A stretch of DNA of 64,000 nucleotides. It comes from Alphaproteobacteria bacterium (lineage in GTDB: Bacteria > Pseudomonadota > Alphaproteobacteria > Ferrovibrionales > Ferrovibrionaceae). The notes under the pieces were generated by a model that worked only from the letters and a program-made list of their open reading frames with translations, had not been told where the DNA came from and did no database searches. Positions 4,080 to 44,175 of the stretch are shown here, piece after piece (position 1 is the stretch's first letter; the number at the start of each line of letters is the position of its first letter). The translations under genes were made by a program, and so were the position numbers. Location of the stretch: the NCBI GenBank assembly GCA_017307375.1, contig JAFKFH010000007.1:124001-188000 (forward strand), read 5' to 3'.

Positions 4080-4210
4080 CATCCCGGTTGCACGGATGCT
4101 CCTTATGGTTCATCCGATATATTAGCGGTGCGCAGGGTTCGATCGATCGGTCCGTTAGGCTGCTGCGGGCCGCTTGAGACGTGAGAGACCAGAAGGTTCC
4201 GGAGGGGTAG

Positions 4211-4666: not shown

Positions 4667-4708
4667 TCGACGGATGTCACTAACCCCCTCGCGTTCCGGT
4701 ACCATGCG

Positions 4709-5107
4709 ATGCCTCTGACGCTGAAACTGAAGAACGGGCAGAAGGTCATCATCAACGGCGCGGTGATCGAGAATTCGGGGCCCCCGGCAACGATGGTGGT
4801 GCACAACACTGCCAATATTCTGCGGGACAAGGACGTACTGACCGAGCAAGAGGCAAAGAGTCCCGCCTCGCTCGTCTACTATGCCCTGCAATGCGCCTAT
4901 CTGTTTGAGGACAATCGCGTCGAATTCCTCGAGCGTTTCGAGCAATTGCTGCGCGACTACGTGGGGGCGGCGCCATCGGCCACGCCGCTCGCCATCGATA
5001 TTCTGACCCTCGCCGGGCAGGGCGACCTCTACGGCGCGTTACGCACCGCGCGCAAGCTGCGTGAGCACGAAGAGGAGCGTATGGGGGCGATGCTGCGCAG
5101 CATCTGA
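4709..5107 (+). CDS. flbT: Flagellin translation repressor FlbT
   Basis: The 132-residue protein matches FlbT, which in Caulobacter binds the 5' leader of flagellin mRNA and limits its translation and stability until hooks are complete. Family signatures visible are LTLKLKNGQKVIINGAVIEN near the N-terminus and TEQEAKSPASLVYYALQCAYL in the middle, followed by a helical C-terminus (GDLYGALRTARKLREHE). It lies directly downstream of flaF in the conserved order. The target here would be the flagellin gene 5 kb away, which has a long possible leader. Confidence 0.9.
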   Translation: MPLTLKLKNGQKVIINGAVIENSGPPATMVVHNTANILRDKDVLTEQEAKSPASLVYYALQCAYLFEDNRVEFLERFEQLLRDYVGAAPSATPLAIDILTLAGQGDLYGALRTARKLREHEEERMGAMLRSI

Positions 5108-5140
5108 CGGCCGAAGCGCCGCCGCGACGACCGGCAGAGC

Positions 5141-5355
5141 ATGATCGACGACCTGTCCGCCGAACGTTCGAACGCAATTTCGCCGCGTTCGCCGACGCCC
5201 TGCCCGAACTTCATGCCGTTCTCGCCGCGATCGACGCGTCGGCGCCGCTTATCCTCACTAAGCCCGGCGAACCAGGCGACATCCCTGCTCTATGGCGGCC
5301 GGGCGCCACGGCCGCTCCGGCCGAGATGGCGGAGGCGTCGCGGTGCGGACGCTGA
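5141..5355 (+). pseudogene. Frameshifted relic resembling the N-terminus of a Maf/DUF115 protein
   Basis: The 416-base stretch between flbT and the convergent Maf gene has no intact gene. An ATG at 5141 opens MIDDLSAER, after which the convincing frame shifts at about 5165 to one reading TFERNFAAFADALPELHAVL and, from 5254, TKPGEPGDIPALW, ending at a TGA at 5353-5355. This aligns by eye with the start of the Maf paralogues downstream (LFLRNMEKLAEVAPDLHGLI ... DPGNADDIN). Shared features are the F/L-x-R-N motif, the P-x-LH motif and the PG-x-x-x-DI motif. I read it as the decayed start of a fifth Maf gene. Alternatives are an unrelated small gene or a sequencing frameshift; the missing 500 or more residues argue against a simple error. 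Confidence 0.4.
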
Positions 5356-5523
5356 CCAAGGAATCGATCATCGTCACGGTCCAGACGGCTTTTCGTCATG
5401 CCATCGGCCACGATCAGGTTGCCGATGCCCGGCTGCTTGACTCACGGTGACGGCCTCCAAGGAATCCCTGGCGCGCATGGGGCCGGGCTGAAGCGGACGA
5501 TTGCGGCGATCGCCTGACAGGTC
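5356..5523. other. Short coding-like stretch of unknown origin between relic and maf gene
   Basis: After the relic, a third frame with a possible GTG at 5343 reads RTLTKESIIVTVQTAF and runs to a TGA at 5448-5450. Its composition looks coding, but it is only 35 codons long, lacks a ribosome binding site and matches nothing I know. It may be a further frameshifted piece of the same decayed gene. From 5451 to 5523 nothing is recognisable, and no T-rich terminator hairpin is visible before the end of the convergent maf gene. Confidence 0.25.
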
Positions 5524-7488: not shown

Positions 7489-9386
7489 CAAGCGCCCCGC
7501 TGACTCGCCACGACCTGACGCAGCGTATCCGCCAACATCCTGGCGCGCGCCGCCGGCCGGGCATCGGTACCAGCGGCGACCGCGTCGACCACGCGTTGGC
7601 GTGCGGCTTCACGACCTGCGTCGGTCAACAGCGGGCCCAGGATCGCCGCAAGGTCTTGCGGTGTCGCGGCAATCCAGTCCACCAACCCGACGCTGGTCAG
7701 GGCGCTGGCGGTGCTGCGGCCGGCCGGGGTATCGCCCGGCAGGGTCACGACCGGACGGCCCATCAGCAGCGCGGCCATCGCGCTCTCGACATCGCAGACC
7801 GGGCCGATGTCCAGGATGACGTCGGCGGCGGCAATCAGTTCCATCGCCTCCTTTTCCGGTGCGACGTCAGCCATCGTCACGATACGGTCCGCGCAGCCAT
7901 ACCAAACGAATTGTTCCAGCAGGTTCTCGAAGCCGTCCTCGCCGCCGAGCCGGCCGCGGTCGAGCAACAGCAGCGCGTCGGGAAGGGCATCCAGAAGGTC
8001 TGCGAGGATCGCGCAGTTGGTCGGATTGAGCAAAGCGCGCGTGGCGCGTAGGCCGATCACCCGTAATTCCTCGGCCGCACGCAGCGGCAGGGCCGGCAGG
8101 ACATCTTCGGGCAAGCCGTATAGCGGCGCAGGCGTCGTCGCCGCGATGCCCTCCAGGCCGGCGATCAGCACCGCATCGCCGACCACGCCGGTGGCGCCGA
8201 ACGCCGAGGCCACCGCCGGCAGCTGGGCCAAAGCGAGGACGAGGCAGTTGGGCTGCTCCAGCAACAGTCCGGCGCGCTCGTTGGTGCCGATGTCGTCGAG
8301 CGCGATCAGCACGTCGACCCCGACGTTCTCGATCATCAGGGCGGCGGTGGCGTCGTCGATGTCGGCGAAGTCGATCCAGTCGTCGGCGACGTGGCGCAGG
8401 CGTCGGGTCAGCGCGTCATCCTGCCGCGACAGGTTGAACACGGTCAGTTCCCAACCCGTGATGTCGCTGCGCTGGAGGAACATGCTGAGCAGGTTGAGAG
8501 GTGCGGCCGCCACCGACAGCCGGCCCGATAGCAGGCCGATCCGCAGCTTGCGGTTTTCGAGCGGTTCGAAATAGGGCGTCTCCGCCGCGTCTTTGGCCGC
8601 CGCCTGCAATCCGGCGCGCCAGTGCCGCGCGGCGGCGCCGAGCGAAGCGGCCGTAATCGCCGGGTTGAAACGCAAGTCGGCGATGCGGGCGGCGGCGATG
8701 CCAGCGTCGTCGGGATCGTGGCGCAGCGCCTGCTCATAAAGTGCGGCGGCTTCGTTGTGCCTGCCGCAACGCGCCAGGGTCGAGGCGATGGCGGCAAAAT
8801 CCCAGCCCCGCGGGGCGCCGGCCGCGACCAGCCCCTGCAGCGCCATCAGCGCGTCGAACGGGCGATTCTGTGCGTTGATTGTGGCGGCAAGGCCGCGCCA
8901 GCCATCCATCGAATGCGTATTCAATGTGATTTCGCGCCGGAACATGCGCTCGGCTTCCGCCAGCTTGCCCTCGGCCTGCAGGGCCAGCGCCGCCTGCAGC
9001 AGCGGATCGGCCTTGATGTTCAGGAAGTGGTCGGCAAAGACGCCGAGCCAACTTGGCAGCAAGCCCGGAATCGGGCTGTGAGCCAGGGCCGGCGACAGCT
9101 TGGCAAAGAACAGCGCGTCGTGCAGCTTGCCCAGCCGCGCATAGGTGATCGCCAGCGCCTCGGCGTGTTCGTGGACCGACGGGGCCAGCTGATGGGCGGT
9201 ATCGAAGAACTTGAGCGCTTCGACCGGTTCGCCGGCATACAGCGCAAGCAGCCCGAGCATGTGCTGGGTGACCGGCGATTCCGGATCGGCCGCCGATATC
9301 TTCTCGATCCGGGCATAGGCCTCGCCCAGTTGCTTGTCAGCGAGCGCCTGCAGCGCCGAGGCAATCAGGTCCTGATTCTCTGTCAT
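7488..9386 (-). CDS. TPR protein with degenerate GT41-like domain, FlmG-like flagellin glycosyltransferase
   Basis: The 632-residue protein has an N-terminal array of TPR-like helices (about residues 1-240). A C-terminal domain (about 290-620) resembles the O-GlcNAc transferase/SPINDLY GT41 fold. The clearest match is VTLPGDTPAGRSTASALTSV, equivalent to the VTLPGD-x-R-x-x-S segment of that family. The preceding half is degenerate: the usual PxQVxWxGYPGTTG segment is replaced by QPNCLVLALAQLPAV. The architecture matches Caulobacter FlmG, a TPR protein that binds flagellin and is needed for its pseudaminate glycosylation. The ATG at 9386 follows GGGACGG; a GTG four codons earlier is an alternative. 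It overlaps maf copy 1 by one base and sits just after the flagellin terminator, so it has its own transcript or is read through. Confidence 0.75.
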   Translation of the reverse strand: MTENQDLIASALQALADKQLGEAYARIEKISAADPESPVTQHMLGLLALYAGEPVEALKFFDTAHQLAPSVHEHAEALAITYARLGKLHDALFFAKLSPALAHSPIPGLLPSWLGVFADHFLNIKADPLLQAALALQAEGKLAEAERMFRREITLNTHSMDGWRGLAATINAQNRPFDALMALQGLVAAGAPRGWDFAAIASTLARCGRHNEAAALYEQALRHDPDDAGIAAARIADLRFNPAITAASLGAAARHWRAGLQAAAKDAAETPYFEPLENRKLRIGLLSGRLSVAAAPLNLLSMFLQRSDITGWELTVFNLSRQDDALTRRLRHVADDWIDFADIDDATAALMIENVGVDVLIALDDIGTNERAGLLLEQPNCLVLALAQLPAVASAFGATGVVGDAVLIAGLEGIAATTPAPLYGLPEDVLPALPLRAAEELRVIGLRATRALLNPTNCAILADLLDALPDALLLLDRGRLGGEDGFENLLEQFVWYGCADRIVTMADVAPEKEAMELIAAADVILDIGPVCDVESAMAALLMGRPVVTLPGDTPAGRSTASALTSVGLVDWIAATPQDLAAILGPLLTDAGREAARQRVVDAVAAGTDARPAARARMLADTLRQVVASQRGA

Positions 9387-9486
9387 GATCCGTCCCACGC
9401 GTCGTCGACGAGCCGTTCAACGGCTCCTGAAGCCCCGAGCTTCGACTGAAGATGAATACTCGTCAACAAGGTCCTGCATCACAAAG

Positions 9487-9512
9487 AAAAGGCCCCGGTA
9501 AAGGGGCCTTTT
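9487..9512 (-). terminator. Intrinsic terminator downstream of flagellin
   Basis: A perfect 10-bp inverted repeat (AAAAGGCCCC / GGGGCCTTTT) with a 6-base loop lies 25 bases after the flagellin stop codon. On the minus strand the stem is followed by TTTTC-rich sequence, as in a Rho-independent terminator. It separates the flagellin from the TPR glycosyltransferase gene whose start is 100 bases further on. Confidence 0.85.
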
Positions 9513-9536
9513 CCAGTGAGCTTAGGCTGTCCGCGA

Positions 9537-10466
9537 TTAGCGGAGGAGCTGCAGCACCGCCTGCTGGTTCTGGCCGGCAACCGACAGCGCCTGAATGCTC
9601 AGCGACTGGCGGGTGTTCAGCGCGACCAGGTTGGCGCCTTCCTCATTCAGGTCGGCAAGAGTGAGCTTCTCCGCACCGGTCTTGAGGTCGTTTGAGTAGT
9701 TGGTCGTGAAGTCCGCACGGGTCTGCAGGATCGAGACCTGAACGCCGAGCTGCGAGCCCAGGTTCTGGATCTGCGTGATCGCACGGTCCAGGCGCGAAAG
9801 GATGGCCTGGAACCGCGAGCCGGCGATCGATGCCAGCGACTGGGCGGCGGTCGAACCGGCGATGTTCGACAGACCCGAACCGTTCGCAAACGTCGCGATG
9901 TTCGAGAAGATGAACGAACCTGCCGAGTTGAACGCCGCGGCGTCGGTGAAGATCGCGCGGGCCTGGGCGGCGGCGGTCGAGTCGAGGTCGAAACCACGAA
10001 CGTTCAGCACGGCGGCGGTACGCTCGGAGAACTGAACCGAGAGCTTGGCCGCGGTCGAGGTCAGAATGTTCAGACCGTTGTAGGACGAGTCCTTCAAGAG
10101 CTGATTGATCTGACGGCCGATTTCACGGATCGACGTCGTCGTCGCAGCACGCTGGGACTGGTTCTGCGACGCCGCCGCCTGAACAAGGCCCTTCATCGAG
10201 GTCAGGAAGTTCGAAACCGACTGCACGCCACGCAGGGTGGACTGCAGCGTGCTCAGACCCTGGTCGATGGTGTCCTTGCGGGCGGTAAGGTCGGTCGCAC
10301 GGTTGCTCAGGCCTTGCGCCTGGAAGAACGCGACCGCGTTGTCCAGAACGGTGTTGACCTTCTTGCCCGAGGTCAGGCGGCCCTGCGTACGCGCCGACAG
10401 GTCGGCGGTCTGCTGCAGCGAGATCAGGGACGAACGTGCGGCGGAGGTAAGGCTGATATCCGACAT
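9537..10466 (-). CDS. Flagellin
   Basis: The 309-residue protein is a flagellin, the subunit of the flagellar filament. The conserved N-terminal helices (SLISLQQTADLSARTQGRL, TSGKKVN, DTIDQGLSTLQSTLRGVQSV) and C-terminal helices (TNYSNDLKTGAEKLTLADLN, EEGANLVALNTRQSLSIQAL) are intact. The central part, about residues 130-230, is short and rich in Ser, Thr and Ala, with no large D2/D3 domain. Its surface loops are the expected acceptors for the nonulosonic acids made by neighbouring genes. AGAAGGAG precedes the ATG. It is monocistronic, with its own terminator, and codon use is strongly biased to C-ending codons as expected for a highly expressed gene. No symbol is given because alphaproteobacterial flagellins have inconsistent names. 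Confidence 0.96.
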   Translation of the reverse strand: MSDISLTSAARSSLISLQQTADLSARTQGRLTSGKKVNTVLDNAVAFFQAQGLSNRATDLTARKDTIDQGLSTLQSTLRGVQSVSNFLTSMKGLVQAAASQNQSQRAATTTSIREIGRQINQLLKDSSYNGLNILTSTAAKLSVQFSERTAAVLNVRGFDLDSTAAAQARAIFTDAAAFNSAGSFIFSNIATFANGSGLSNIAGSTAAQSLASIAGSRFQAILSRLDRAITQIQNLGSQLGVQVSILQTRADFTTNYSNDLKTGAEKLTLADLNEEGANLVALNTRQSLSIQALSVAGQNQQAVLQLLR

Positions 10467-32830: not shown

Positions 32831-33610
32831 TTACCGGTTACACTTAATTAAGCTGGGTTGCATCCAAGCAAGACTCTCGCTCGTTGTCGTCGTGCTTGGC
32901 CTGTACTCGCAGCCAATGCGACCCTGATAGCCCAGGCGGTCGAATTCGCCGATCAGCCAGACCAGGTCGAGCTCGCCTGCGCCCGGTTCGTGCCGGCCTG
33001 GCGGGTTGGCGATCTGGACATGGCGGATGCGCGGCAGCAGGCGGCGGAAGCGACCGTGGACATCGCCTTCCTCGAGCTGGACGTGATAGCAGTCGAATTG
33101 CAGCCCCAGATTCGGCCGGGCTACCGCGTCGAGGGTCGGGACGGCCTGATCGGTACGATTCAGATAGTAGCCGGGCATCGACGCCCGGCTGATCGGTTCG
33201 ATGGTGAAGCCCATGCCGGGCGCCTGATCGGCGATCCAGGCGAGGTTTGCGCGATAAACGGCCTCGGCTGCCTCATCGCGCGGCGCGACGCCGGCCATGC
33301 AATGCACCATCGGACAACCGCAAGCTGCCGCATGATCGAGTGCCTTGAGGGCGCCATCGCGGAATTCGGCCTCCCGGCCCGGTACGGCGGCAAGCCCGCG
33401 GTCGCCGGCGACGGCATCGCCGAAGGGGGTATTGATCAGGGTGACGGCGACCCCGGCGTCGCGCGCCCATCGGGCGACGGTATCGGGGTTTTCGTCATAG
33501 GCGCCGACGAACTCGACTTCCGTAAATCCGGCCGCCGCCGCCGCCGCGAAACGGGCGGGCAGCGGCAGTTCGGTGAACAGGAATCCGATATTGGCGACGA
33601 GACGCGGCAT
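32831..33610 (-). CDS. Hydroxypyruvate isomerase-like sugar isomerase
   Basis: The 259-residue protein is a TIM-barrel isomerase of the xylose isomerase-like/AP endonuclease 2 superfamily. It resembles Hyi/GlxB and OtnI, which interconvert hydroxypyruvate or related keto-aldoses. Visible marks are ANIGFLFTELPLPARF with GFTEVEFV after it, TLINTPFGD, NPPGRHEPGAGELDL and the C-terminal GRIGCEYRP. The start is the ATG at 33610; a long upstream open frame is a shadow of the oppositely oriented mlaE gene. Substrate is not determined by sequence alone. Confidence 0.82.
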   Translation of the reverse strand: MPRLVANIGFLFTELPLPARFAAAAAAGFTEVEFVGAYDENPDTVARWARDAGVAVTLINTPFGDAVAGDRGLAAVPGREAEFRDGALKALDHAAACGCPMVHCMAGVAPRDEAAEAVYRANLAWIADQAPGMGFTIEPISRASMPGYYLNRTDQAVPTLDAVARPNLGLQFDCYHVQLEEGDVHGRFRRLLPRIRHVQIANPPGRHEPGAGELDLVWLIGEFDRLGYQGRIGCEYRPSTTTTSESLAWMQPSLIKCNR

Positions 33611-33692
33611 GGATTGTGACAATGACGGCAGCCTGACGCGGCCGCAAGCGCGGTTGATCTGGTTGCGCTGCAATGCCAAGGTGCGCCCGGTC

Positions 33693-34832
33693 ATGAATGC
33701 GGAAATCGGCAAGACGACGTTTTGGCAGACGGCGCGGCGCGAGGGGGGGCTCGGCTGTGCCTGTACCGGCGCCTGGATCATCGCGAATGCCGCCGCGATC
33801 GACGCAGCCATTGCCGGCACCGAATCGGTCTCCGGCCACGCGATCCTCGACCTCGGCGGGCTCAGCCGGCTCGATACCGCCGGGGCCCATCTGATCGTCA
33901 AGGCCGAACGGCGCCTCGCCGCCGGCGGCGCGACGGTCGAACGCATCGGCGCCCGGCCCGAATACGAGACCCTGCTCGAACTCGTCACCTGCGACGCGGC
34001 GCGGCTGGTGCCGCCGCCCCCCGGCCCACCCTGGATCATCCGCTTTCTCGGCGGTATCGGGCAGTCCACCGTCAACGCCGGCCACGAGGCGCGCGATCTG
34101 ATCGGCTTCATCGGCTTGGTCATCGTGACGCTCGCGCGGCTGATCGTGAAACCCTGGCGCCTGCGTCTCACCAGCCTGGTCTTCAACATCGAGCAGGTCG
34201 GCTTCAACGCGATGCCGATCATCGGCCTGCTGTCGTTCCTGATCGGGGTCGTGATGGCCTATCAGGGGGCCGACCAGTTGGCCCGGTTCGGAGCACAGAT
34301 CTACGTCGTCAACCTGCTGGGCATCTCGGTGCTGCGCGAACTCGGGGTGCTGATGACCTCGATCATCGTCGCCGGCCGCTCGGGCAGCGCGTTCACCGCG
34401 CAGATCGGATCGATGAAGCTGCGCGAGGAGATCGACGCGATGCGCACGATCGGCCTGGACCCGGTCGAGGTGCTGGTGCTGCCGCGGGTCCTCGCACTGA
34501 TCGTCGCGCTGCCGCTGCTGACGTTCTTTGCCGATATCATGGGGCTGCTGGGCGGCGCGCTGATGGCCTGGAGTTCCCTCGACCTGCCGCCGCGCCTGTT
34601 CCTGACCCAGCTGCAGCAGGCGGTCGAGTTGCATACCTTCTTCGTCGGGCTCATCAAGGCCCCGGTATTCGCGATGACCATCGCGATCGTCGGCTGCTAC
34701 ATGGGCATGAAGGTGTCGGGCTCGGCCGAAAGCGTCGGCAAGATGACGACAGCGTCGGTCGTCCTCTCGATCTTCCTCGTCATCGTGATCGACGCGTTCT
34801 TCTCGGTGTTCTTCTCGATGGTGGGATTGTGA
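33693..34832 (+). CDS. mlaE: STAS-MlaE fusion permease of lipid ABC transporter
   Basis: The 379-residue protein starts with a STAS domain (about residues 1-110; VSGHAILDLGGLSRLDTAGA then HLIVKAE). It continues as an MlaE-type permease with about five membrane helices: FNIEQVGFNAMPIIGLLSFL, VLRELGVLMTSIIVAGRSGS and FTAQIGSMKLREEIDAMRTI. In E. coli the STAS protein MlaB is separate; here it is fused, as is common outside the Enterobacteria. The Mla system moves phospholipids between outer and inner membranes. It is coupled to mlaF by a GTGA overlap. Confidence 0.92.
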   Translation: MNAEIGKTTFWQTARREGGLGCACTGAWIIANAAAIDAAIAGTESVSGHAILDLGGLSRLDTAGAHLIVKAERRLAAGGATVERIGARPEYETLLELVTCDAARLVPPPPGPPWIIRFLGGIGQSTVNAGHEARDLIGFIGLVIVTLARLIVKPWRLRLTSLVFNIEQVGFNAMPIIGLLSFLIGVVMAYQGADQLARFGAQIYVVNLLGISVLRELGVLMTSIIVAGRSGSAFTAQIGSMKLREEIDAMRTIGLDPVEVLVLPRVLALIVALPLLTFFADIMGLLGGALMAWSSLDLPPRLFLTQLQQAVELHTFFVGLIKAPVFAMTIAIVGCYMGMKVSGSAESVGKMTTASVVLSIFLVIVIDAFFSVFFSMVGL

Positions 34833-35602
34833 GGCCGGAGGCGCGCGAGGCGGTGATCACCGTCCGCGGCCTGCGCAACCAGTTCGGCGCGCAGGTGATC
34901 CACGACCACCTGGATCTCGACGTCTGGCGCGGCGAGGTGCTCGGCATCGTCGGCGGCTCCGGTACCGGCAAATCGGTGCTGATGCGCACGATCGTCGGGC
35001 TCAACCGCCCGCGTGCCGGATCGATCAACGTGCTCGGCGTCGACGTGCTCGGCGCGGACGAGGACGTCCGCCATGCGGTCGAGCGGCGCTGGGGCGTGCT
35101 GTTCCAGGACGGGGCGCTGTTCTCGTCGCTGACCGTGGCCCAGAACATCGAGGTGCCGATGAAGGAGCATCTCGACCTGCCCGACAAGCTGCGCGCCGAG
35201 ATCGCGCGGCTCAAGGTCAAGCTGGTCGGCCTGCCGCCGGAGGCCGCCGACAAGTTTCCCTCCGAGCTGTCGGGCGGCATGCGCAAGCGCGCCGGGCTGG
35301 CCCGGGCGCTGGCGCTCGACCCGGAGATCGTCTTCCTCGACGAGCCGACCGCCGGCCTCGATCCGGTCGGGGCGACCGCCTTCGACAACCTGATCAAGGA
35401 CCTGCAGCAGGCTTTGGGCCTGACCGTCTTCATGGTGACCCACGATCTCGATTCGCTCTACGCGATCTGCGACCGCATCGCCGTGCTGGCCGAGAAGCGC
35501 GTGCTGGTCGAAGGGCCGATCGAGGTGATGCTGGAGCAGACCCATCCCTGGATCAGGGAATATTTCCACGGGCCGCGCGCGCGCGCCGCCCTTGGCGCTT
35601 GA
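34829..35602 (+). CDS. mlaF: MlaF-type ABC transporter ATPase
   Basis: The 257-residue ATPase energises the MlaE permease. Walker A is GGSGTGKSVLMRTIVGL, the Q-loop is GVLFQDGALFSSLTV, the ABC signature is ELSGGMRKRAGLARALALDP and Walker B is IVFLDEPTAGLDPVG, with the H-loop in VTHDLDSLY. The start is a GTG overlapping the mlaE stop. The extended C-terminal tail, ending in YFHGPRARAALGA, matches the MlaF group. Confidence 0.93.
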   Translation: MRPEAREAVITVRGLRNQFGAQVIHDHLDLDVWRGEVLGIVGGSGTGKSVLMRTIVGLNRPRAGSINVLGVDVLGADEDVRHAVERRWGVLFQDGALFSSLTVAQNIEVPMKEHLDLPDKLRAEIARLKVKLVGLPPEAADKFPSELSGGMRKRAGLARALALDPEIVFLDEPTAGLDPVGATAFDNLIKDLQQALGLTVFMVTHDLDSLYAICDRIAVLAEKRVLVEGPIEVMLEQTHPWIREYFHGPRARAALGA

Positions 35603-35613
35603 AGGGACGACAG

Positions 35614-36603
35614 ATGGAAACCAAGGCGCATCACGTCTTGATCGGCAGTTTCGTGCTGGCCTTCGTCGCCGCGATCTTCGGCTTCGTCATCTGGCTGGCG
35701 CGCGTCGACCTGACCAAGCAGGTCGACATGTACGACATCTATTTCTTCGGCTCGGTGGCAGGCCTCGGCGTCGGCGGGGATGTCCGCTTCAACGGCGTCA
35801 AGGTCGGTTCGGTCAATTCGATCGTGCTGGACCCTGACGATCCGCAGCGCGTCAAGGTCACGATCGAGGTCGAGGGCGGGACGCCGATCCGCACCGATTC
35901 CTACGCCCAGCTCGACCTGCAGGGCATCACCGGCGTCTCCTTCGTGCAGATCGTCGCCGGCACCTCGCGTGCGCCGCTGCTGGCCAAGGACGGGGCGTCG
36001 CGCCCGGTCATCCTGTCGCGCTCGTCGAACATCGCCAAGCTGGTGGAAGGGGCACCGCAGCTGATCGGCCGGATGATCGAGGTGGTCGACCGGATCGCGA
36101 ACATCCTCAATCCGGACACCCAGGCCGACATGATCAAGATCGTCGGCGACCTGCGCAAGATGACGGAGATGCTGGCCAGCCGCGAAGAAGCCTTCGGCCG
36201 CATCGTCGACAACTTCGACGCCACCTCGACCGAGGTGGTGGCCGGCTCCAAGCAGCTCCGCGATTTCGCCGGCCGGCTGAACAAGCTGGCGGGCGAGGCC
36301 GAGAAGACGCTGGCCGGCCTCAACGCGCTGACCAACCAGGATGGCCGCGCGATGATCGCCGATATCCGCAAGACCACCCAGTCGGTGGACCTGCTGGCCA
36401 AGGAAGTCCACGGCCTGGTCGCCGAGAACCGGCGGCCGATCGGCGATTTTGCCAATGACGGCCTGACCGATTTCCGCCGCCTGCTCGACGAGGCGCGCAT
36501 CCTGATCGGCAACCTGCAGCGCGTCGCCAACCGGCTCGAGGACAACCCGAGCCAGATCATCTTCGGTGCCCGGGATTCCGAATTCCGGCCGAATTCGCGG
36601 TGA
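35614..36603 (+). CDS. mlaD: MlaD/MCE-domain substrate-binding protein
   Basis: The 329-residue protein has one N-terminal membrane helix (IGSFVLAFVAAIFGFVIWLA), a single MCE domain (about residues 40-120; GSVAGLGVGGDVRFNGVKVG) and a long helical C-terminal part (about 150-310) rich in charged heptads. MCE proteins form hexameric rings that pass lipids through the periplasm. It is longer than E. coli MlaD (183 residues), resembling alphaproteobacterial forms with a helical extension. The ATG follows AAGGGA; a TTG five codons earlier overlaps mlaF. Confidence 0.9.
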   Translation: METKAHHVLIGSFVLAFVAAIFGFVIWLARVDLTKQVDMYDIYFFGSVAGLGVGGDVRFNGVKVGSVNSIVLDPDDPQRVKVTIEVEGGTPIRTDSYAQLDLQGITGVSFVQIVAGTSRAPLLAKDGASRPVILSRSSNIAKLVEGAPQLIGRMIEVVDRIANILNPDTQADMIKIVGDLRKMTEMLASREEAFGRIVDNFDATSTEVVAGSKQLRDFAGRLNKLAGEAEKTLAGLNALTNQDGRAMIADIRKTTQSVDLLAKEVHGLVAENRRPIGDFANDGLTDFRRLLDEARILIGNLQRVANRLEDNPSQIIFGARDSEFRPNSR

Positions 36604-36611
36604 GGCCCCCG

Positions 36612-37283
36612 ATGACCCAGTCCTTCTCCACCCGTCGCGCGCTGCTCGGCCGTGGCCTGGCGCTCGGCGCTGCAGCGCCTGTGCTGGGCGCCTGCGAAGC
36701 GATCCGCCTGGGCGGGCCACCGCCCGACCTGTTCACGCTGGCGCCCAAGTACCGGTTCGATCCGAACCTGCCCAAGGTCGACTGGCAGCTGGTCATCGAG
36801 GAGCCGCTGTCTTCCGGAGCGCTCGACACCAATCGCATCGCCGTGCGGCCGAGCCAGTTCGAGCTGAAGTACTGGGCCGATGCCCGCTGGACCGAGCGGG
36901 CGCCGCGCATGGTCCAGACCGTGCTGATCGAGAGTTTCGAGAATACCGGCAAGATCGTCGCGGTCGGCCGCCAAGCGGTCGGGCTGCGCTCGGACTACAA
37001 CCTGAAGAGCGAACTGCGCGAATTCGAACTCGACCTCTACCGAAATCCGAACCAGCCGCAGGCCCGCGTCCGGCTGAACCTGAAACTCGTGCGCCAGCCG
37101 CGCGAACAGATCATCGCCTCGGCTTCGTTCCGCAATGCCGAACCGGCGCGCAGCCTCAACCTGCCCGACGTCATCGAGGCCTTCAACGAGGCGATCAACA
37201 AGATCCTGCGCCGCACCGTGGAATGGACGCTGCAGGCGCCGACCCATCCAGGTGTCGAGACCCTGGACGACCAGAACGGCTGA
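36612..37283 (+). CDS. ABC-type transport auxiliary lipoprotein (PqiC-like)
   Basis: The 223-residue protein has an N-terminal signal TRRALLGRGLALGAAAPVLG that ends in a lipobox with Cys at about residue 30. The twin arginine suggests possible Tat export. The remaining domain (PDLFTLAPKYRFDPNLPKVD, IVAVGRQAVGLRSDYNLKSE) fits the ABC transport auxiliary family to which PqiC belongs. These are outer-membrane lipoproteins working with MCE rings. It closes the Mla operon, nine bases after mlaD. No MlaA or MlaC homologue is in the window. Confidence 0.85.
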   Translation: MTQSFSTRRALLGRGLALGAAAPVLGACEAIRLGGPPPDLFTLAPKYRFDPNLPKVDWQLVIEEPLSSGALDTNRIAVRPSQFELKYWADARWTERAPRMVQTVLIESFENTGKIVAVGRQAVGLRSDYNLKSELREFELDLYRNPNQPQARVRLNLKLVRQPREQIIASASFRNAEPARSLNLPDVIEAFNEAINKILRRTVEWTLQAPTHPGVETLDDQNG

Positions 37284-38024
37284 TCAGCTGCGCGTGATGC
37301 CGTGGAGCGGCACCAGCGTGCTGCCGCCGTCGTAGTCGATCCGCCGTATCGGCACGCCGTACAGCCGCGACAGTGTCTCGGCCTGCAGGATCTCGCCGGC
37401 GGGCCCCGACAGGGGCGCCGCCCCGCCCAGCAACAGGGCGTGATCGGCGAGGTCGGCGGCGTGTTCGGGGTGGTGGGTGGTGAAGACCACGGTCATGCCG
37501 CGGCTGTCGGCCAGGCGCCGCATCAGCCGAAGCACCGCACCCTGATTGGTCAGGTCGAGGGCCGATGCCGGCTCGTCCAGGACCAGAATGTCGGCGCCGG
37601 TCGCCAGCGCGCGGGCGAGCAGCACCAGCTGACGCTGACCGCCGCTGAGCTGGTCGTAGCGTCGGTCGGCCAGCGTGCCGATGCCGATTTCGTCCAGGCA
37701 GGCCTGGGCGATCGCCACATCCTTGCGGCCCGGCGCGCCGAAGCGCCCGAGATGCCGGCTGCGGCCGAGCAGCACCATTTCGCGCACCAGATAGCCGAGA
37801 TCCGCCTGGGTCGCCTGCGGCACATGGCCGACCGGACCTGCTGCCTCGATGCTGCCTTCGGTGAGCGGCGCGATGCCACATAGGGCACGCAGCAGCGTCG
37901 TCTTGCCGCAGCCGTTGGGGCCGAGGATCGCGGTGACGGCGGCCGGCGGCGCCGTGAAGGAGAGATGGCGGAACAGCCATTGTCCCGGCCGATAGGCATG
38001 GCCGGCCGCGCGGCAGCCGATCAT
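37284..38024 (-). CDS. FecE/BtuD-type ABC transporter ATPase
   Basis: The 246-residue ATPase belongs to the iron-chelate/cobalamin importer group. Walker A is LGPNGCGKTTLLRALCGIAP, the signature is DQLSGGQRQLVLLARALATG and Walker B is ADILVLDEPASALDLTNQG, with VVFTTHHPEHAADLADHALL holding the H-loop. Its ATG overlaps the permease stop as ATGA. It converges on the Mla operon lipoprotein gene with no spacer. It powers uptake through the neighbouring FecCD-type permease. Confidence 0.9.
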   Translation of the reverse strand: MIGCRAAGHAYRPGQWLFRHLSFTAPPAAVTAILGPNGCGKTTLLRALCGIAPLTEGSIEAAGPVGHVPQATQADLGYLVREMVLLGRSRHLGRFGAPGRKDVAIAQACLDEIGIGTLADRRYDQLSGGQRQLVLLARALATGADILVLDEPASALDLTNQGAVLRLMRRLADSRGMTVVFTTHHPEHAADLADHALLLGGAAPLSGPAGEILQAETLSRLYGVPIRRIDYDGGSTLVPLHGITRS

Positions 38025-39043
38025 GCCGTCCGCCCCCGGGCGGCCGCCCGGTGCAGCAGCAGCGCGAAGACCGGCGTGCCGACCACCGCGGTCACGATCC
38101 CCACCGGAATCTCGGCGGCGGTCAGGTCGCGGGCGATCGTATCGGCGACCAGCATGAAGGAGGCGCCGATCAGCAGCGAAGCGGGCAGCAGCCGCCGGTG
38201 ATCGGCCCCGACCAGCAGCCGGGCCAGGTTCGGCACGACCAGCCCGACCCAGCCGATGACCCCGCTGATCGCGACCTGGGCGGCGACGATCACGCAGACC
38301 GCGGCCAGCAGGATCAGCCGGTCGCGGCCCGGGGCGCAGCCAAGCGCGCGGGCCTCGTCGTCGCCGAGCGACAGCAGGTTGATGCGCCAGCGCATCGCCA
38401 GCACCACGCTGCCTGCCGCCACGGTGCAGGTGGTCGCTAGCGCAAGCCCCGGCCAGCTGGCGGTGGCAAGGCTGCCCAGCAGCCAGAAGACCAGGGCCGG
38501 CAATTTGGTCTCGGGGTCGGCGATGAAGGTGATGAAGCCGACGACGGCCGAGCAGAAGGCGCCGATGACGATCCCGGCCAGCACCAGCGTCAGCACGGGC
38601 GCGACCCGGCCGCGTGGCTGCATCGCCAGCACCGCGCCGAGGGCACCGGCCGCGCCGGCGAAGGCACCGAAGGTCACCGCCGGGCCGAAGCCGAAGGCCA
38701 GAATCGCCGCGACCCCGCCCAGCGAGGCACCGGCCGACATGCCGATGGTCTGGGGGCCGACCAGCGGGTTGCGGAAGACGCCTTGCAGCGCCGCGCCGCA
38801 CAGCGCGAGCCCGGCCCCGGTGACGATCGCCATCAGGACCCGCGGCAGCCGCACCACCAGCACCACCATCCGTTCGGTCGGCGACCAGTCCGGCACGATG
38901 TCGAACAGCGGTGCGGCCAGGATGGCGAGAACCCGGGTCGGCGGCACCGGATAGCGGCCGGCCGCCAGCGCGTGGAGGGTCAGGCCGGCCATCAGCAGCC
39001 CCAGCAGCGACCAGAACAGGGCCGGGCGGCGGTGGATCGTCAT
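38021..39043 (-). CDS. FecCD/BtuC-type ABC transporter permease
   Basis: The 340-residue polytopic membrane protein matches the FecCD family, which has ten helices. Visible marks are VVRLPRVLMAIVTGAGLALC, GAALQGVFRNPLVGPQTIGM, SAGASLGG, ISGVIGWVGLVVPNLARLLV and GIVTAVVGTPVFALLL. These are the usual family blocks. Only one permease gene is present, so it would act as a homodimer like BtuC. It overlaps both neighbours by four bases. Confidence 0.92.
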   Translation of the reverse strand: MTIHRRPALFWSLLGLLMAGLTLHALAAGRYPVPPTRVLAILAAPLFDIVPDWSPTERMVVLVVRLPRVLMAIVTGAGLALCGAALQGVFRNPLVGPQTIGMSAGASLGGVAAILAFGFGPAVTFGAFAGAAGALGAVLAMQPRGRVAPVLTLVLAGIVIGAFCSAVVGFITFIADPETKLPALVFWLLGSLATASWPGLALATTCTVAAGSVVLAMRWRINLLSLGDDEARALGCAPGRDRLILLAAVCVIVAAQVAISGVIGWVGLVVPNLARLLVGADHRRLLPASLLIGASFMLVADTIARDLTAAEIPVGIVTAVVGTPVFALLLHRAAARGRTA

Positions 39044-40140
39044 CGCGCGCCCCCTGCAAGACCGCCGTATCCGGCCGAGTTACGGTTGGCCGCCATGAAC
39101 AGGATGACGTCGATGTCGGCGTCGTCGACCGGCCGTTCGTAGAGGAAGCGATACCAGTCGCTGATGTCGGCGCGCAGCGTCGGGGCCAGCCGCCCCGGCT
39201 GCAGCAGGCCGGCCAGCCACCCCCAGGCGAGCGCCGATTCCTGGCTCGGCGGATCCCAGCGATAGCCGCCGAGCGGCATGCGATAGACGCGGCGGTCGCG
39301 TATCGCCGCGACCGACTGCAGCCGCGGATCGGCATAGAGGTCGGCGGGCATCGCCGTATCGAAGTTCCCGAGCAGCACGATGTCGGGGTTCCAGACCAGC
39401 AGTTGTTCCACGGTGACGGTCCGCGCGCCGCGGGGCAGGTCGGCGGCGACGTTGCGGCCGCCGGCGAGCCTGATGCAGAAATCGATGTAGGACTCGCTGC
39501 CGCCTACGGTGAACGCGCCGTTGTAGCGGCTCAGATAAAGCACGCCAGGACGACCGCCGGGCTGCAGCCCGGCCATGGCCTGCTCGATCTCCGCCTGGCG
39601 GATGGCCTGTCGCGTCACGATCGCATCGGCCCGCGCCGGATCCCCGGCGGCGGTACCCAGCAGCCGGGTATAGGCCGCCATTTCCGCCTGGCCGCCATAG
39701 CGGATGCCCATCACCTTCAGCCCCGCGCGCTCCAGCATCGCGATCGGCTCGTCCCCTTCGCTTGCCCACTGGACGACCAGGTCGGGGGTCAGGGTCAGCA
39801 CCTGCTCGACATTCGGCAGCATGGTATTGCCCTGGGTCACGTCGGTGGCGATGGCGGCATAGCCGGGAAAGAAGCGGCCGAGGATCCCGTCGCGCATGGC
39901 GGCGGCCGAGGCCCGATTCATGCCGGCGATGCGCGCGACGCCGCGATCGAGGGCGATGAAGGTCGAGGGTGCCGGCATCGGCAGGAAGACCGCGCGTTCG
40001 ACCGGCTGCGGAAACGACAGGGCGCGACCGCGCTGGTCGGTCACGTCGGCAGACTGAACCGGCTGCAGTCCTGATAATATGATAATCGCGATAGTTGCGG
40101 CGACCAAGCTGATTGTATTGGCGCGGCGAGATACGTGCAT
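39040..40140 (-). CDS. FecB/BtuF-type periplasmic binding protein
   Basis: The protein has a hydrophobic signal (NTISLVAATIAIIILSGLQP, cleavage probably after VQSA) and a class III periplasmic binding domain. Marks include VTDQRGRALSFPQPVERAVF, LPNVEQVLTLTPDLVVQWAS and WNPDIVLLGN, the paired-lobe pattern of iron-siderophore, haem, cobalamin and molybdate-type receptors. The ATG at 40140 gives a normal signal peptide (366 residues); in-frame ATG/GTG codons at 40197-40200 would add 19-20 residues. Neither start has a strong ribosome binding site. The ligand is not evident. It is divergent from the TonB receptor. Confidence 0.85.
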   Translation of the reverse strand: MHVSRRANTISLVAATIAIIILSGLQPVQSADVTDQRGRALSFPQPVERAVFLPMPAPSTFIALDRGVARIAGMNRASAAAMRDGILGRFFPGYAAIATDVTQGNTMLPNVEQVLTLTPDLVVQWASEGDEPIAMLERAGLKVMGIRYGGQAEMAAYTRLLGTAAGDPARADAIVTRQAIRQAEIEQAMAGLQPGGRPGVLYLSRYNGAFTVGGSESYIDFCIRLAGGRNVAADLPRGARTVTVEQLLVWNPDIVLLGNFDTAMPADLYADPRLQSVAAIRDRRVYRMPLGGYRWDPPSQESALAWGWLAGLLQPGRLAPTLRADISDWYRFLYERPVDDADIDVILFMAANRNSAGYGGLAGGAR

Positions 40141-40204
40141 CTTTGCCAACCTGTTGATTCCGAACAATCCAATGCGGCGTATCGCGGTTTGGGTCATCAC
40201 TTTT

Positions 40205-40222
40205 GATACTGATTTTGATTCT
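40205..40222. promoter_or_regulatory. Three tandem GATNNT hexamers, possible Fur-like operator
   Basis: The very AT-rich gap between the divergent uptake genes contains GATACT GATTTT GATTCT back to back. Fur boxes can be read as arrays of GATAAT-like hexamers, so this is a candidate metal-responsive operator serving both directions. The match is imperfect and no mirrored copy is evident. In alphaproteobacteria Irr or RirA could bind instead. Confidence 0.35.
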
Positions 40223-40305
40223 TATTTACAATAATGGATTCAACCAATAACGTTCAGCCGTCGCTCCGGGGGGAACGTTCATCTTGTTGTTTCAGGTACC
40301 TGCCG

Positions 40306-42474
40306 ATGATGTTCGGAAAGCCTGCCGGCGCCCTCGGGGTGGCGCTGGCCTTGATTCCCGCCTCGCTCGCCGCTCAGCCGGTCGCGCCGTCGACCCTGCC
40401 GGTCCTGTCCGTCACGGGTAGTGCGGGTGCCGCCGCGAATGCGGGGCTTCCCGATGCCGAGAAGCCGGCCCAGACGCTGCATCAGGAGACGTCGTCGGTC
40501 AGTGTCGTCGACCGCGCCGAGATCGAGCAGTTCAGCCCGGCCTCGACGCTCGACATTCTGCGCGACGTACCGGGTATCTCGGTGTCGCGTTCGGGCGGGA
40601 TCGGCGGGCAGATCTACATGCGCGGCTTCTCGTCGAACGATTTCCGCTCGTCGATGTATATCGACGGCGACCGCTTCCACGGCCGCAACACCCTGCAATT
40701 ATCCTATCTCGACCCCGAGGAACTGGCGCGGGTCGAGGTGATCCGCGGCCCGGGATCGGTGCTCTACGGGTCGGAAGCGATGACGGGCCTGGTCAATTTC
40801 ATCACGCTGCGGCCGAGCGGGAACGTGTTTGCACCGACCTTCCGCTATACCGGCGGCAGCGCGTCGCTGACCTATGGCAGTGCTGCCGATGCCGTGCGCG
40901 GCGGCCTGGCGATCGAGGGGGCGGGGGCCGGCTTCGACTTCCGGGGCAGCGTCGCGGCACGCTACGGCAGCGACTATTCGTCGCCGCTCGGCACCGTACC
41001 GAATTCCGACTACAAGACGTTCGGCGGCAGCCTGATCCTCGGCTATACCCCGAAACTGGGCGAGCGCTTCGAGGTCCTGGGCCGGGCCGAGACCGTCACC
41101 AACGGGCGGGCGGGTGGCGTCGGCGGCGTGCCGGGCGCCCCGCTCCTGGTGGCGCGCGAGCAGCCGAACCAGGTCTATATGGGCCGCCTCGGCTATGTGC
41201 GCGATCTCGATACCGGCTGGTTCTCGCGGATCGAGGCCAACACCTATGTGAATTATTTCTACACCAAGCTGACGACCGTCAATCGCACCGTCGCCCGCCA
41301 GGTCACCTCGACCAACAGCTACGTGATCGGCCCGACCGTCTGGGGCGGCAAGATCATGGGTACCGTGCCCTGGCGCAATGCGACCACCAATCTCGGTGTC
41401 GACTTCTCCTACGAGGAACGGTCCGGCAGCGAGCAGTCGAACCAGGTGGCGCGCTACAACGCCAACGGCACCCTGGCGTCGATCACCACGCGACCGCGAT
41501 TCCAGACCGGGCCGGATGCGAACCAGACCAACGCGGGTGCCTTCGTGCTGCACGAGTGGACGCCGGTCGAGCAGGTGACGGTGTCGGCCGGCGGGCGGCT
41601 CGACTGGTTCAACACGCAGACGGCGACCACCCCGCTGTCGTCGCCCGCGCTGCTGCCGGCCTATCTGCGCTCGGCCGAAACCAACAACTACGCCGCCACC
41701 GGCTCGGTCGGTCTGGTCTACCGGCCGTTGTCGCATCTCGATCTCGTCGCCAATGTCGGCAATTCGTTCCGTCAGCCGACGACGTCCGAGATGTTTTCCT
41801 CCGGCGTTTCCGGGGCGGGCTATACCGTGCCGAATCCCGGGTTGAAGCCTGAGCGCGGCATGACCTACGAAGGCGGTTTCCGCCTGCACTTCGCCAATGC
41901 CAGCGCCAGCGTCACCGCCTATCACAACACCTACAAGGACCTGATCGTCACCGCGCCGGTGACTTACCTGGGCACGGCGTCGACGCAGCGCCAGAACGTC
42001 TCGGAGGCCAAGATCGACGGCATCGAGATCCAGGGCAACGTCATGGTGCTGCCCGCCGTCAGCCTGTTCGGCAATGCGACGGCCCTGCGCGGTACCAACA
42101 CGGCGACGAACAAGCCTTTGCCCTATATCTCGCCGTTCCACGGCCGTGTGGGTGTCGAATATGCCCCGGCAGGCCAGGGTTACACCATGACCGGGACCGT
42201 CGACATGGCCTCAGCCAAGACCCGGATCGACAGCACGCAGGAATTCCCGACCGGCGGGTACGGCGTGTTCAATCTTTATGCGACGCTTGATCTCGACCGC
42301 CTGATATCGCCGCAACTCGGCAATACCAGGCTGATCCTCGGGGCGGAGAACATCTTCAACAAGGCCTACCGCGATGCCTCGACCTACGGTTCGGTCGCCT
42401 ATGCCGAAAGCCTGACCAACCCGCTGGTCGAACCGGGCCGCAACTTCACGGCGACCCTGCGGGTGAAGTTCTGA
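40306..42474 (+). CDS. TonB-dependent outer-membrane receptor
   Basis: The 722-residue protein has a signal peptide (GALGVALALIPASLAAQ), a plug domain (TSSVSVVDRAEIEQFSPAST, then LDILRDVPGISVSRSGGIGG, and EVIRGPGSVLYGSEAMTGLV) and a beta barrel. The barrel ends in NPLVEPGRNFTATLRVKF, with the C-terminal Phe typical of outer-membrane barrels. A TonB box is probably in TLPVLSVTG. It takes up a chelate or cofactor using TonB energy, presumably delivered to the divergent FecB-type system. The ATG at 40306 gives a clean signal peptide; the ATG at 40234 would add 24 odd residues. Its stop overlaps the next ATG. Confidence 0.93.
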   Translation: MMFGKPAGALGVALALIPASLAAQPVAPSTLPVLSVTGSAGAAANAGLPDAEKPAQTLHQETSSVSVVDRAEIEQFSPASTLDILRDVPGISVSRSGGIGGQIYMRGFSSNDFRSSMYIDGDRFHGRNTLQLSYLDPEELARVEVIRGPGSVLYGSEAMTGLVNFITLRPSGNVFAPTFRYTGGSASLTYGSAADAVRGGLAIEGAGAGFDFRGSVAARYGSDYSSPLGTVPNSDYKTFGGSLILGYTPKLGERFEVLGRAETVTNGRAGGVGGVPGAPLLVAREQPNQVYMGRLGYVRDLDTGWFSRIEANTYVNYFYTKLTTVNRTVARQVTSTNSYVIGPTVWGGKIMGTVPWRNATTNLGVDFSYEERSGSEQSNQVARYNANGTLASITTRPRFQTGPDANQTNAGAFVLHEWTPVEQVTVSAGGRLDWFNTQTATTPLSSPALLPAYLRSAETNNYAATGSVGLVYRPLSHLDLVANVGNSFRQPTTSEMFSSGVSGAGYTVPNPGLKPERGMTYEGGFRLHFANASASVTAYHNTYKDLIVTAPVTYLGTASTQRQNVSEAKIDGIEIQGNVMVLPAVSLFGNATALRGTNTATNKPLPYISPFHGRVGVEYAPAGQGYTMTGTVDMASAKTRIDSTQEFPTGGYGVFNLYATLDLDRLISPQLGNTRLILGAENIFNKAYRDASTYGSVAYAESLTNPLVEPGRNFTATLRVKF

Positions 42475-42965
42475 TGGCCGCGGAACCGACCGTCCGCATC
42501 ATGGGCGAGGAGGAGGTCATCGCCGTGACCTGGCCGGCCGTGGCGGCCTATCACGGGCAGGGGGCGCTGGCGATGCTGGCGCTGACCTTCCAGGCCCTGA
42601 ACGGGATGATGGCACTGCTGCCGGCAATCCCGCGCCGCGAAGACATCACGATCCTGTCCGGCCATCCCGGCCCCGGGGTGCGGGATGCCTTCGAGTTCGT
42701 GACGCGGGCCGTGACGCGCGGTGCCTACACCGTCGATCGCAGCCTGCCCGAAGCACGCTTCAATCCGCATGGCGACATGTCCTACAGCTTCCGCCTGACC
42801 GCCGGCTCCCGGACTGTCGCGGCGGTACTGCGCGAAGGCGTGCTGCCGCCGCGCTTCTTTGCCCTGTTCAAGGGCGGCGATCCCGCCGAACTCAGCGCGC
42901 TGAAGCGCCGGATCGCCGACGAGGCGCTGGCCGCGCCCCCCGACCGGGCGTTCATCCTGTCATGA
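42474..42965 (+). CDS. FmdE-like protein coupled to TonB receptor
   Basis: The 163-residue protein resembles the FmdE family, named for formylmethanofuran dehydrogenase subunit E. These proteins are also found in bacteria beside metal or cofactor uptake genes. The N-terminal AAYHGQGALAMLALTFQALN parallels the F-H-G-H-x-x-P-x-L-x-x-G-x-R motif. The central SGHPGPGVRDAFEFVTRAVT parallels the G-x-D-A-x-Q-x-x-T block. The third block is GDMSYSFRL. The usual Cys after the first His and the C-terminal zinc finger are absent, so metal binding would differ. It overlaps the receptor stop by one base and the next gene by four. Confidence 0.55.
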   Translation: MAAEPTVRIMGEEEVIAVTWPAVAAYHGQGALAMLALTFQALNGMMALLPAIPRREDITILSGHPGPGVRDAFEFVTRAVTRGAYTVDRSLPEARFNPHGDMSYSFRLTAGSRTVAAVLREGVLPPRFFALFKGGDPAELSALKRRIADEALAAPPDRAFILS

Positions 42966-43558
42966 TCCTCGTGCTGACCACCGGTTTCGACGAGGGGGCG
43001 GCCGCGCGTCTGGCGCGGCAGCCGGGCATGGCCGGCCACATCGCCGGCCTCGATCAATATGCGTTCGACGAGGCCAGCCTCGCCGGTCGGCGGGCCCTGG
43101 TCATCGGGATGCACTGCGACCAGCGATTCCTAGCCGGGCGCGCCGGGTTGATAGCCGATTTCCTGCGGCACGGCGGGCGCGTCGTCGCCTCGGGACACCA
43201 TGCCTATCCGATCCTGCCGGGTATCGGGGGATTTGCCGCCGCCGAGCGGCCGACGCTTGCCGACCTGACGATCCATCGCCTGGTCGACCACCCGGTCTGG
43301 ACCGGCGTCGACGGCGCGGATCTCACTTTTCGCCGGGGCGTGGCAGGCTTCTATGGCCGGGTCTGGCACGACCCGCCCGATGGCGCGCTGATCGTCAACG
43401 GCATTGGTCCGGACCGCCGGCCGCTCGATTTCATCTACGGCGTGGACGCCGGGACCGTGCTGTTTCACGGCGGCAACGATCTTACCGGCTATGGCAGCGC
43501 CGACGATTCCAGTGGGCGCATCCTGCCGCAACTGCTCGACTGGATGATGGCGTCATGA
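42962..43558 (+). CDS. ThuA/class I amidotransferase-like protein A
   Basis: The 198-residue protein has a flavodoxin-like alpha/beta layout seen in ThuA and glutamine-amidotransferase-like proteins. A first strand is MILVLTTGFDEGA; ALVIGMHCDQRFL is followed by a helix, then FLRHGGRVVASGHHAYPILP and a late GTVLFHGGNDLTGYG. No Cys-His-Glu triad of a true amidotransferase is evident: MHCD has a Cys but not the G-x-C-x-G elbow. It is coupled by four-base overlaps to the FmdE-like gene and the related protein B. I infer a role in handling the imported compound or sensing it; nothing specific is known to me. Confidence 0.55.
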   Translation: MILVLTTGFDEGAAARLARQPGMAGHIAGLDQYAFDEASLAGRRALVIGMHCDQRFLAGRAGLIADFLRHGGRVVASGHHAYPILPGIGGFAAAERPTLADLTIHRLVDHPVWTGVDGADLTFRRGVAGFYGRVWHDPPDGALIVNGIGPDRRPLDFIYGVDAGTVLFHGGNDLTGYGSADDSSGRILPQLLDWMMAS

Positions 43559-44175
43559 CGATCGCGGTGCTCGATGGCGGAACCTATTACCACCACGAAA
43601 CCATCCACGGCCCGCGCTATCGCGGCCGGTTCGACCGGGTGATCCATGCGCCGGCCCTGACTGCGGGCGATCTTGCCGATGTCACCACCCTGATCGTACC
43701 GGATCGCATCAGCCCGACGGTGCTGCGCCGGCATCGTGACCTGCTGAACGGATTTCCCATGGCGGGCCGGACCCTGGTGGTGCTGGGCGAGAACGACGTC
43801 ATGACCTGGCTCGACGGCGTCGCGTGGACCCCGCGCCCGACGAATTTCTGGTGGTGGCTGGCTCCCGGGGCCGAACCCCCGCACCAGTTTCCCGCGCCCG
43901 GCCACGCGCTGTTCCGGCATATCCGACCGGCCGATACCGTCTGGCACTTCCACGGCGTGCTGCAGGCGCCGGCCGGCGCCGAGGTGCTGGTCTCGGTGCC
44001 GGCCGATCCGGACGGGCGTGATCGGGGCGGGGCGCTGCTTTACGAGGACCTGACGACGCGGCCGGGCCGGCTGATCGTTGCGACCCTCGATCCGTTCTAT
44101 CACCACGGCAGCCGGTTCATGCCGGCGACGACCCGGTTCCTCGACGGTTTCCTGCCGTGGCTGCGAACGCTGTGA
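43555..44175 (+). CDS. ThuA/class I amidotransferase-like protein B
   Basis: The 206-residue protein shares the fold pattern of protein A: MTIAVLDGGTYYHHETIHGP at the N-terminus, then DVTTLIVPDRISPTVLRRHR and the strand GRTLVVLGENDVM. LIVATLDPFYHHGSRFMP near the end is the counterpart of the FHGGNDLTGYG region of A. Overall identity with A looks low, but length, order of elements and adjacency suggest an old duplication. His pairs (YHHE, YHHG) may bind a metal. It is the last gene of the receptor operon and converges on a phosphoribosyltransferase gene. Confidence 0.55.
   Translation: MTIAVLDGGTYYHHETIHGPRYRGRFDRVIHAPALTAGDLADVTTLIVPDRISPTVLRRHRDLLNGFPMAGRTLVVLGENDVMTWLDGVAWTPRPTNFWWWLAPGAEPPHQFPAPGHALFRHIRPADTVWHFHGVLQAPAGAEVLVSVPADPDGRDRGGALLYEDLTTRPGRLIVATLDPFYHHGSRFMPATTRFLDGFLPWLRTL

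Follow-up and report, generated by a model that had tools for sequence, protein, structure and literature searches.

The closest described systems to the locus analysed here are the TonB/FecBCD importers of ferric chelates (FecABCDE, Fhu and Fep), which share with it a receptor, a class III substrate-binding protein, a FecCD permease, an ATPase and probable promoter boxes of the iron type. The locus occupies positions 37284 to 44175 of a stretch of 64,000 nucleotides (hereafter the window) from a 7.5 Mb alphaproteobacterial genome, and differs from these systems in having one permease gene and, where a ferric reductase or esterase of known kind might be expected, a pair of related cytoplasmic proteins, termed T1 and T2, preceded by a third protein, E. 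To our knowledge, the removal of iron from imported chelates is known for few enzyme types only. The locus has in common with FhuF/FchR, ViuB/YqjH and Fes/IroE a proposed step of iron release after import, with the gene concerned lying beside the importer; however, the folds of those proteins are unrelated to those of T1 and T2, which are paired and GATase1/ThuA-like, and in which no redox cofactor or serine-hydrolase signature was identified. We lean towards reading the locus as an iron-starvation uptake and processing module.

The association of the T1-T2 pair with importers was examined across genomes. Searching species-level genomes with a T2 profile gave 318 relatives, of which the 80 best were examined together with others from plasmids; a genome scan with T1 alone gave no match. 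Relatives of T2 are found in Alpha-, Beta- and Gammaproteobacteria, Chloroflexota, Bacillota (Paenibacillus and Brevibacillus) and one haloarchaeon (Natribaculum), and the distribution within the Pseudomonadota is sporadic (4 of 398 evenly sampled genomes, including that of the window). The neighbouring genes were labelled by homology. An importer lies within 6.5 kb of 95 of the 99 T2 genes, and the other four, some of them on short contigs, have none. An earlier note on this DNA had proposed that the trio of E, T1 and T2 shares a task with import, which agrees with these counts. It had also supposed a strict coupling to the receptor, which is not supported: a TonB receptor gene is near just 42 of the 99 T2 genes and the Gram-positive copies carry Opp importers (loci L011 and L099), so that the coupling is to import and not to the receptor. 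Conservation of the trio itself is supported, E being near 45 of the 99 T2 genes. The conserved core is thus the T1-T2 pair plus an importer, with E being optional.

The importer nearest to T2 is of the Fec type in 66 cases, Opp in 18, Ssu in 10 and Fbp in one. When importer type is mapped on the T2 tree, nine or more changes are required (minimum 3), of which the starred branches by themselves demand five or more for Fec. The window T2 groups with those of Rhodoplanes, Rhodopseudomonas and Bradyrhizobium, which have an identical layout of Fec importer, E and TonB receptor, in a well-supported clade (99*) that also contains nine Ssu-type loci. As the same pair has been re-coupled to unrelated importers, the feature common to these systems is a step that follows import. 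In the Devosia loci L075 and L081 two T1-T2 pairs lie near each other; one of them follows an Opp importer and the other is accompanied by E. A Crp/Fnr-family regulator is encoded divergently to the gene for the receptor or FecB in L016 (4054-4767), with homologues in 16 other loci, mostly of beta- and gammaproteobacteria (e.g. L053, L064 and L095).

The AlphaFold model of T2 (predicted local distance difference test, pLDDT, 94) has the same fold as a set of ThuA/GATase1-like structures, with Z-scores of 12.5-14.6, namely the GATase1-like STM3548 (2gk3, Z 14.6), 3rht, 3soz and the ThuA-like 1t0b (Z 12.5). Iterated profiles of T1 and of T2 each recover both domains (198 domains, 95 loci), and the two are therefore correctly described as related proteins, as the earlier note had it; T1 would have the same ThuA/GATase1-like fold by homology to T2. 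In contrast to the solved members of this fold, the window proteins lack membership at the sequence level, possess motifs of their own (WWW, WHxHG and LDPxxHxGxxFMP) and form an obligate two-protein pair. The ThuA model PF06283 matches neither T1 nor T2 of the window and has a weak match in 3 of 58 T2 relatives, and some T2 relatives touch DUF4350, DUF4159 or ThuA. None of E, T1 and T2 has a Pfam or NCBIfam match of its own at an expectation value (E-value) of 1 or below, and a search of PDB sequences with the T2 and E profiles returned chance matches only. Conserved positions in T1 (101 sequences) are D53, Q54, H79, H110, G126-V127, F130-Y131, R133, D156 and H169. Those of T2, mostly tryptophan, histidine and aspartate, are W99-W101, H117, W130, H131, H133, D179, H183 and F188-M189-P190. 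This pattern suggests metal or ligand binding. The chemistry of class I glutamine amidotransferases was ruled out: T2 contains no cysteine and the single cysteine of T1 falls outside the conserved positions, which excludes a cysteine-dependent reaction. T1 and T2 occur in a 1:1 ratio (100 and 99 domains), and fusions are seen both in the order T1-T2 (L010 and L022) and in the order T2-T1 (L017, L019, L020 and L021). The occurrence of fusions in both orders is strong evidence that the two would function as a complex, which is probably a heterodimer with pockets rich in histidine, aspartate and tryptophan.

Consensus strings for metal-responsive regulators were matched to the regions upstream of the importer operons and of the trio operons, using GC-matched windows of the same loci as the expectation. 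Fur boxes (at least 14 of 19 positions) were found in 22 of the 139 upstream regions against 2.3 expected, and Irr boxes (at least 12 of 16) in 24 of them against 3.3 expected; mirrored control motifs gave 0 (Fur) and 1 (Irr), and a shuffle control was also run. The Irr boxes are mainly in Hyphomicrobiales and precede 6 of 9 Ssu-type operons, where 0.2 are expected. Near-consensus Fur boxes are present before the E-T1-T2-Opp operons of Paenibacillus (18/19) and Brevibacillus (17/19). Zur boxes (14/21) number 8 against 2.0 expected, a small excess that is probably due to their likeness to Fur boxes; control by Zur, Mur or PhoB was considered, and these motifs show weak enrichment at most. Among the ten receptor genes of the host genome, just one other upstream region reaches the 14/19 of the window locus. 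The host encodes three Fur-family regulators, which from their sequences appear to be Fur-, Irr- and Zur-like. The neighbours in methanotrophs include TonB siderophore receptors, PepSY proteins, flavodoxin and HemP, and FecI/FecR-like genes adjoin the Achromobacter copy. Riboswitch-controlled uptake of a cofactor (B12, thiamine, flavin mononucleotide or molybdenum cofactor) was considered and rejected, there being no Rfam match in the window or in seven relatives. The enrichment of Fur and Irr boxes makes a ferric chelate, and not a metal oxyanion, the most likely cargo, and we regard an iron cargo as very probable. The expectation of a metal oxyanion or cofactor rather than a siderophore, expressed in the earlier note, is thus not supported, in view of the promoter boxes and of the riboswitch search.

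In the mechanism that we propose, a small ferric chelate would reach the cytoplasm intact by way of the receptor and FecBCD, as indicated by their families and regulation. T1-T2, together with E where it is present, would then free the iron, either by binding the carrier or by breaking it, a step suggested by gene position, obligate pairing, the swapping of importers and the conserved residues. The carrier would have to be recognised by T1-T2 and not by one particular importer, because importers of the Fec, Opp, Ssu and Fbp types all supply one and the same pair. Ligand processing, already offered by the earlier note as a task of the ThuA-like proteins, appears to be their likeliest role, and processing or iron release by T1-T2 is a proposal that we mildly favour. 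At the T1-T2 loci, where the neighbours are incompletely annotated, the transport-gene labels include no gene for biosynthesis, and the ligand is therefore most likely an environmental chelate or a foreign siderophore. Solved binding proteins were uninformative as to its identity, as those of Fec, Ssu, Opp and Fbp systems point to different ligands.

Several points weigh against this interpretation. The best Fur-like box of the window has a chance of about 2% per region; the scanned loci share ancestry, and their upstream regions do not count as independent cases; and the consensus strings for Fur and Irr were taken as given. The nearest solved relatives of FecB (4ovk, E-value 3e-45, followed by 3psa and others) include the molybdate-binding MolA, which is 3psa, and nickel-binding proteins, and hence the binding protein by itself is no pointer to iron. 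Ligand processing is deduced solely from fold and position, and T1-T2 could instead serve to sense or to store. Finally, more than half of the T2 loci are without E, which must therefore be dispensable.

The AlphaFold model of E (pLDDT 97) resembles the FmdE-like structures 2glz (Z 13.5; 2.6 A over 131 residues), 3d00 (Z 12.5) and 2gvi (Z 11.2), the next match being at Z 5.0, and the FmdE-like fold proposed in the earlier note is thereby borne out. We know of no established function for this fold. The FmdE family model PF02663 has no match anywhere in the host genome and is touched by 6 of 36 relatives of E, the best at 9e-4. The metal ligands of FmdE are cysteines, whereas the window E has no cysteine at all and such ligands are therefore impossible in it. 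In five gammaproteobacterial genomes a distant branch of E is part of [NiFe]-hydrogenase maturation operons, where its gene is flanked by hypE on one side and hypA/hypB or nicO on the other (L128 1414-6878, L144, L146 5178-10946, L147 and L148 4800-9339), a context that supports a metal-handling role for the E family.

A further context of E bears on an alternative that we consider unlikely, in which a phosphonate or similar oxyanion chelator, complexed with ferric iron, is the cargo throughout, T1-T2 and carbon-phosphorus (C-P) lyase are alternative destroyers of the ligand, and E is a shared protein that hands on iron or ligand. In Rhizobium, Agrobacterium, Labrenzia, Martelella, Proteus and Stutzerimonas, as well as on three Escherichia coli plasmids, E is encoded between FecBCD and the C-P lyase genes phnGHIJKL; the cluster also contains a T1-T2 fusion in Labrenzia, Martelella and Stutzerimonas, and in Agrobacterium vitis modules of both kinds, T1T2 and C-P lyase, are arranged in tandem. 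PhnJ retains its four cysteines. Fur-like boxes of 13-14/19 precede the operons of Proteus, Stutzerimonas, Martelella and Labrenzia (L010, L100, L107 and L109), and no good PhoB box was found before the LysR/FecBCD/E/phn operons examined. On the other hand, L009, L105 and L106 have only weak Fur-like boxes (10-12/19), phosphate starvation is the normal setting of C-P lyase, and phn genes are not nearby at most T1-T2 loci. The window locus shares E and the FecBCD importer with these operons; phnGHIJKL genes are absent from among the window genes around it. That this E/C-P lyase branch is itself an iron system for phosphonate chelates is possible. Operons of the form LysR/FecBCD/E/phnGHIJKL were seen in L009, L010, L012, L100, L105, L106, L107 and L109, several of them on mobile plasmids. 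In two of these a sequence, TTCGAAATT..CTTC..CATTGTCCGATTTGTTCGACTTGAT, lies ahead of FecB and a similar one, TTCGATC..TTCGACTTG, ahead of T1T2 (L010, 7430-7620 and 8880-9100; L109, 4430-4620 and 5880-6090), and is perhaps a LysR site. The alphaproteobacterial locus L130 (~4000-9700) has a canonical phnGHIJKLM cluster, which is followed after about 2 kb by an E homologue, possibly an independent association of E with C-P lyase. The window genome encodes one PhnI (C35:44876-45934), so C-P lyase is present, unlinked to the locus.

The remaining alternatives differ from the iron-chelate module in the cargo or in the role of the trio. Uptake of molybdate or tungstate, nickel or cobalt would accord with the likeness of FecB to MolA and nickel-binding proteins, with the hyp/nickel operons of the distant E branch and with the family name of FmdE; it is nevertheless improbable given the Fur and Irr enrichment, the lack of a riboswitch in the window and seven relatives, and the optional nature of E. 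A sensory function, in which T1-T2 and E would monitor the state of iron or ligand and control the importer without handling the ligand, is more improbable still. These proteins are indeed apparently cytoplasmic and nearly always beside an importer, but no DNA- or membrane-binding part is seen in them, separate regulators (LysR, Crp/Fnr) adjoin many loci, and the conserved, pocket-like histidine, tryptophan and aspartate residues fit ligand or metal binding. Least probable of all is that the receptor takes up heme and the trio degrades it. The best NCBIfam model for the receptor is TonB-hemin (TIGR01785) and its nearest solved chains are PhuR and ShuA, yet its score of 245.2 bits is under the model cut-off of 316.85, and in the alignment it has no histidine at either the plug region (GYDHRG) or the loop region (SKHFS) of ShuA, which hold its axial histidines. 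Ssu-type importers are not known to serve heme.

The features of the locus are collected in the table below.

Table. Genes and promoter element of the uptake locus, in window positions
Feature	Position	Strand	Basis or remark
FecD-type ABC ATPase	37284..38024	-	PF00005, E-value 2.9e-26; start inferred from ATGA overlap with FecC
FecC-type permease (only one permease gene)	38021..39043	-	PF01032 FecCD, E-value 4.5e-80
FecB-type class III substrate-binding protein	39040..40140	-	PF01497 Peripla_BP_2, E-value 1.8e-22
Fur-box-like GATACTGATTTTGATTCTT	40205..40223		FecB/receptor intergenic region; 14/19 against consensus
TonB-dependent receptor	40234..42474	+	PF00593, E-value 1.8e-47; PF07715, E-value 8.3e-24
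E, predicted FmdE-fold cytoplasmic protein	42474..42965	+	No signal peptide seen
T1, putative ThuA/GATase1-like, first of pair	42962..43558	+	Conservation in 101 sequences; mutual profile recognition with T2
T2, ThuA/GATase1-like	43555..44175	+	Residue conservation; AlphaFold model

The open reading frames, Pfam matches and sequence agree with the arrangement described in the earlier note, in which a receptor and a single-permease Fec importer are divergently linked to a coupled trio with overlaps; in detail, FecB-FecC-FecD are divergent from an operon of receptor, E, T1 and T2. The stop codon of the receptor and the start codon of E have one base in common (TGATG, 42472-42476), and ATGA overlaps join E to T1 (42962-42965) and T1 to T2 (43555-43558). 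FecB and FecC overlap by four bases (39040-39043), as do FecC and FecD if the latter starts at 38024. The FecB reading frame may begin at 40200, a start near 40140 being probable from the signal peptide (MHVSRR...), and the receptor might start at 40306 or 40309. With receptor, class III binding protein, FecCD permease and ATPase all linked, the locus has the full set of genes of a TonB/FecBCD uptake system. It is adjoined by an operon of Mla-type permease, ATPase, MlaD and ABC-type lipoprotein genes (33573-37283), which is probably unrelated.

The importer is ordinary; the T1-T2 pair and its reuse behind four importer classes we did not find described in the searchable literature. The earlier note knew of no characterised system of this composition, and none turned up in the open-access literature, most subscription papers not being searchable. 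A wider proposal, which we regard as tentative and rather doubtful, is that T1-T2 is a new cytoplasmic complex for processing ferric chelates behind four unrelated importer families and that, in one branch, a Fur-controlled C-P lyase with E degrades a phosphonate chelate for its iron. The sharing of E offers a testable link for the FmdE fold between iron uptake, C-P lyase and hydrogenase maturation. If these readings are true, C-P lyase would serve to acquire iron and not to scavenge phosphate, uptake systems by the hundred that now lack annotation would be marked as iron systems, and T1-T2, which is found with importers of four classes and occurs in Proteobacteria, Bacillota, Chloroflexota and a haloarchaeon, would represent a new general solution to iron release.

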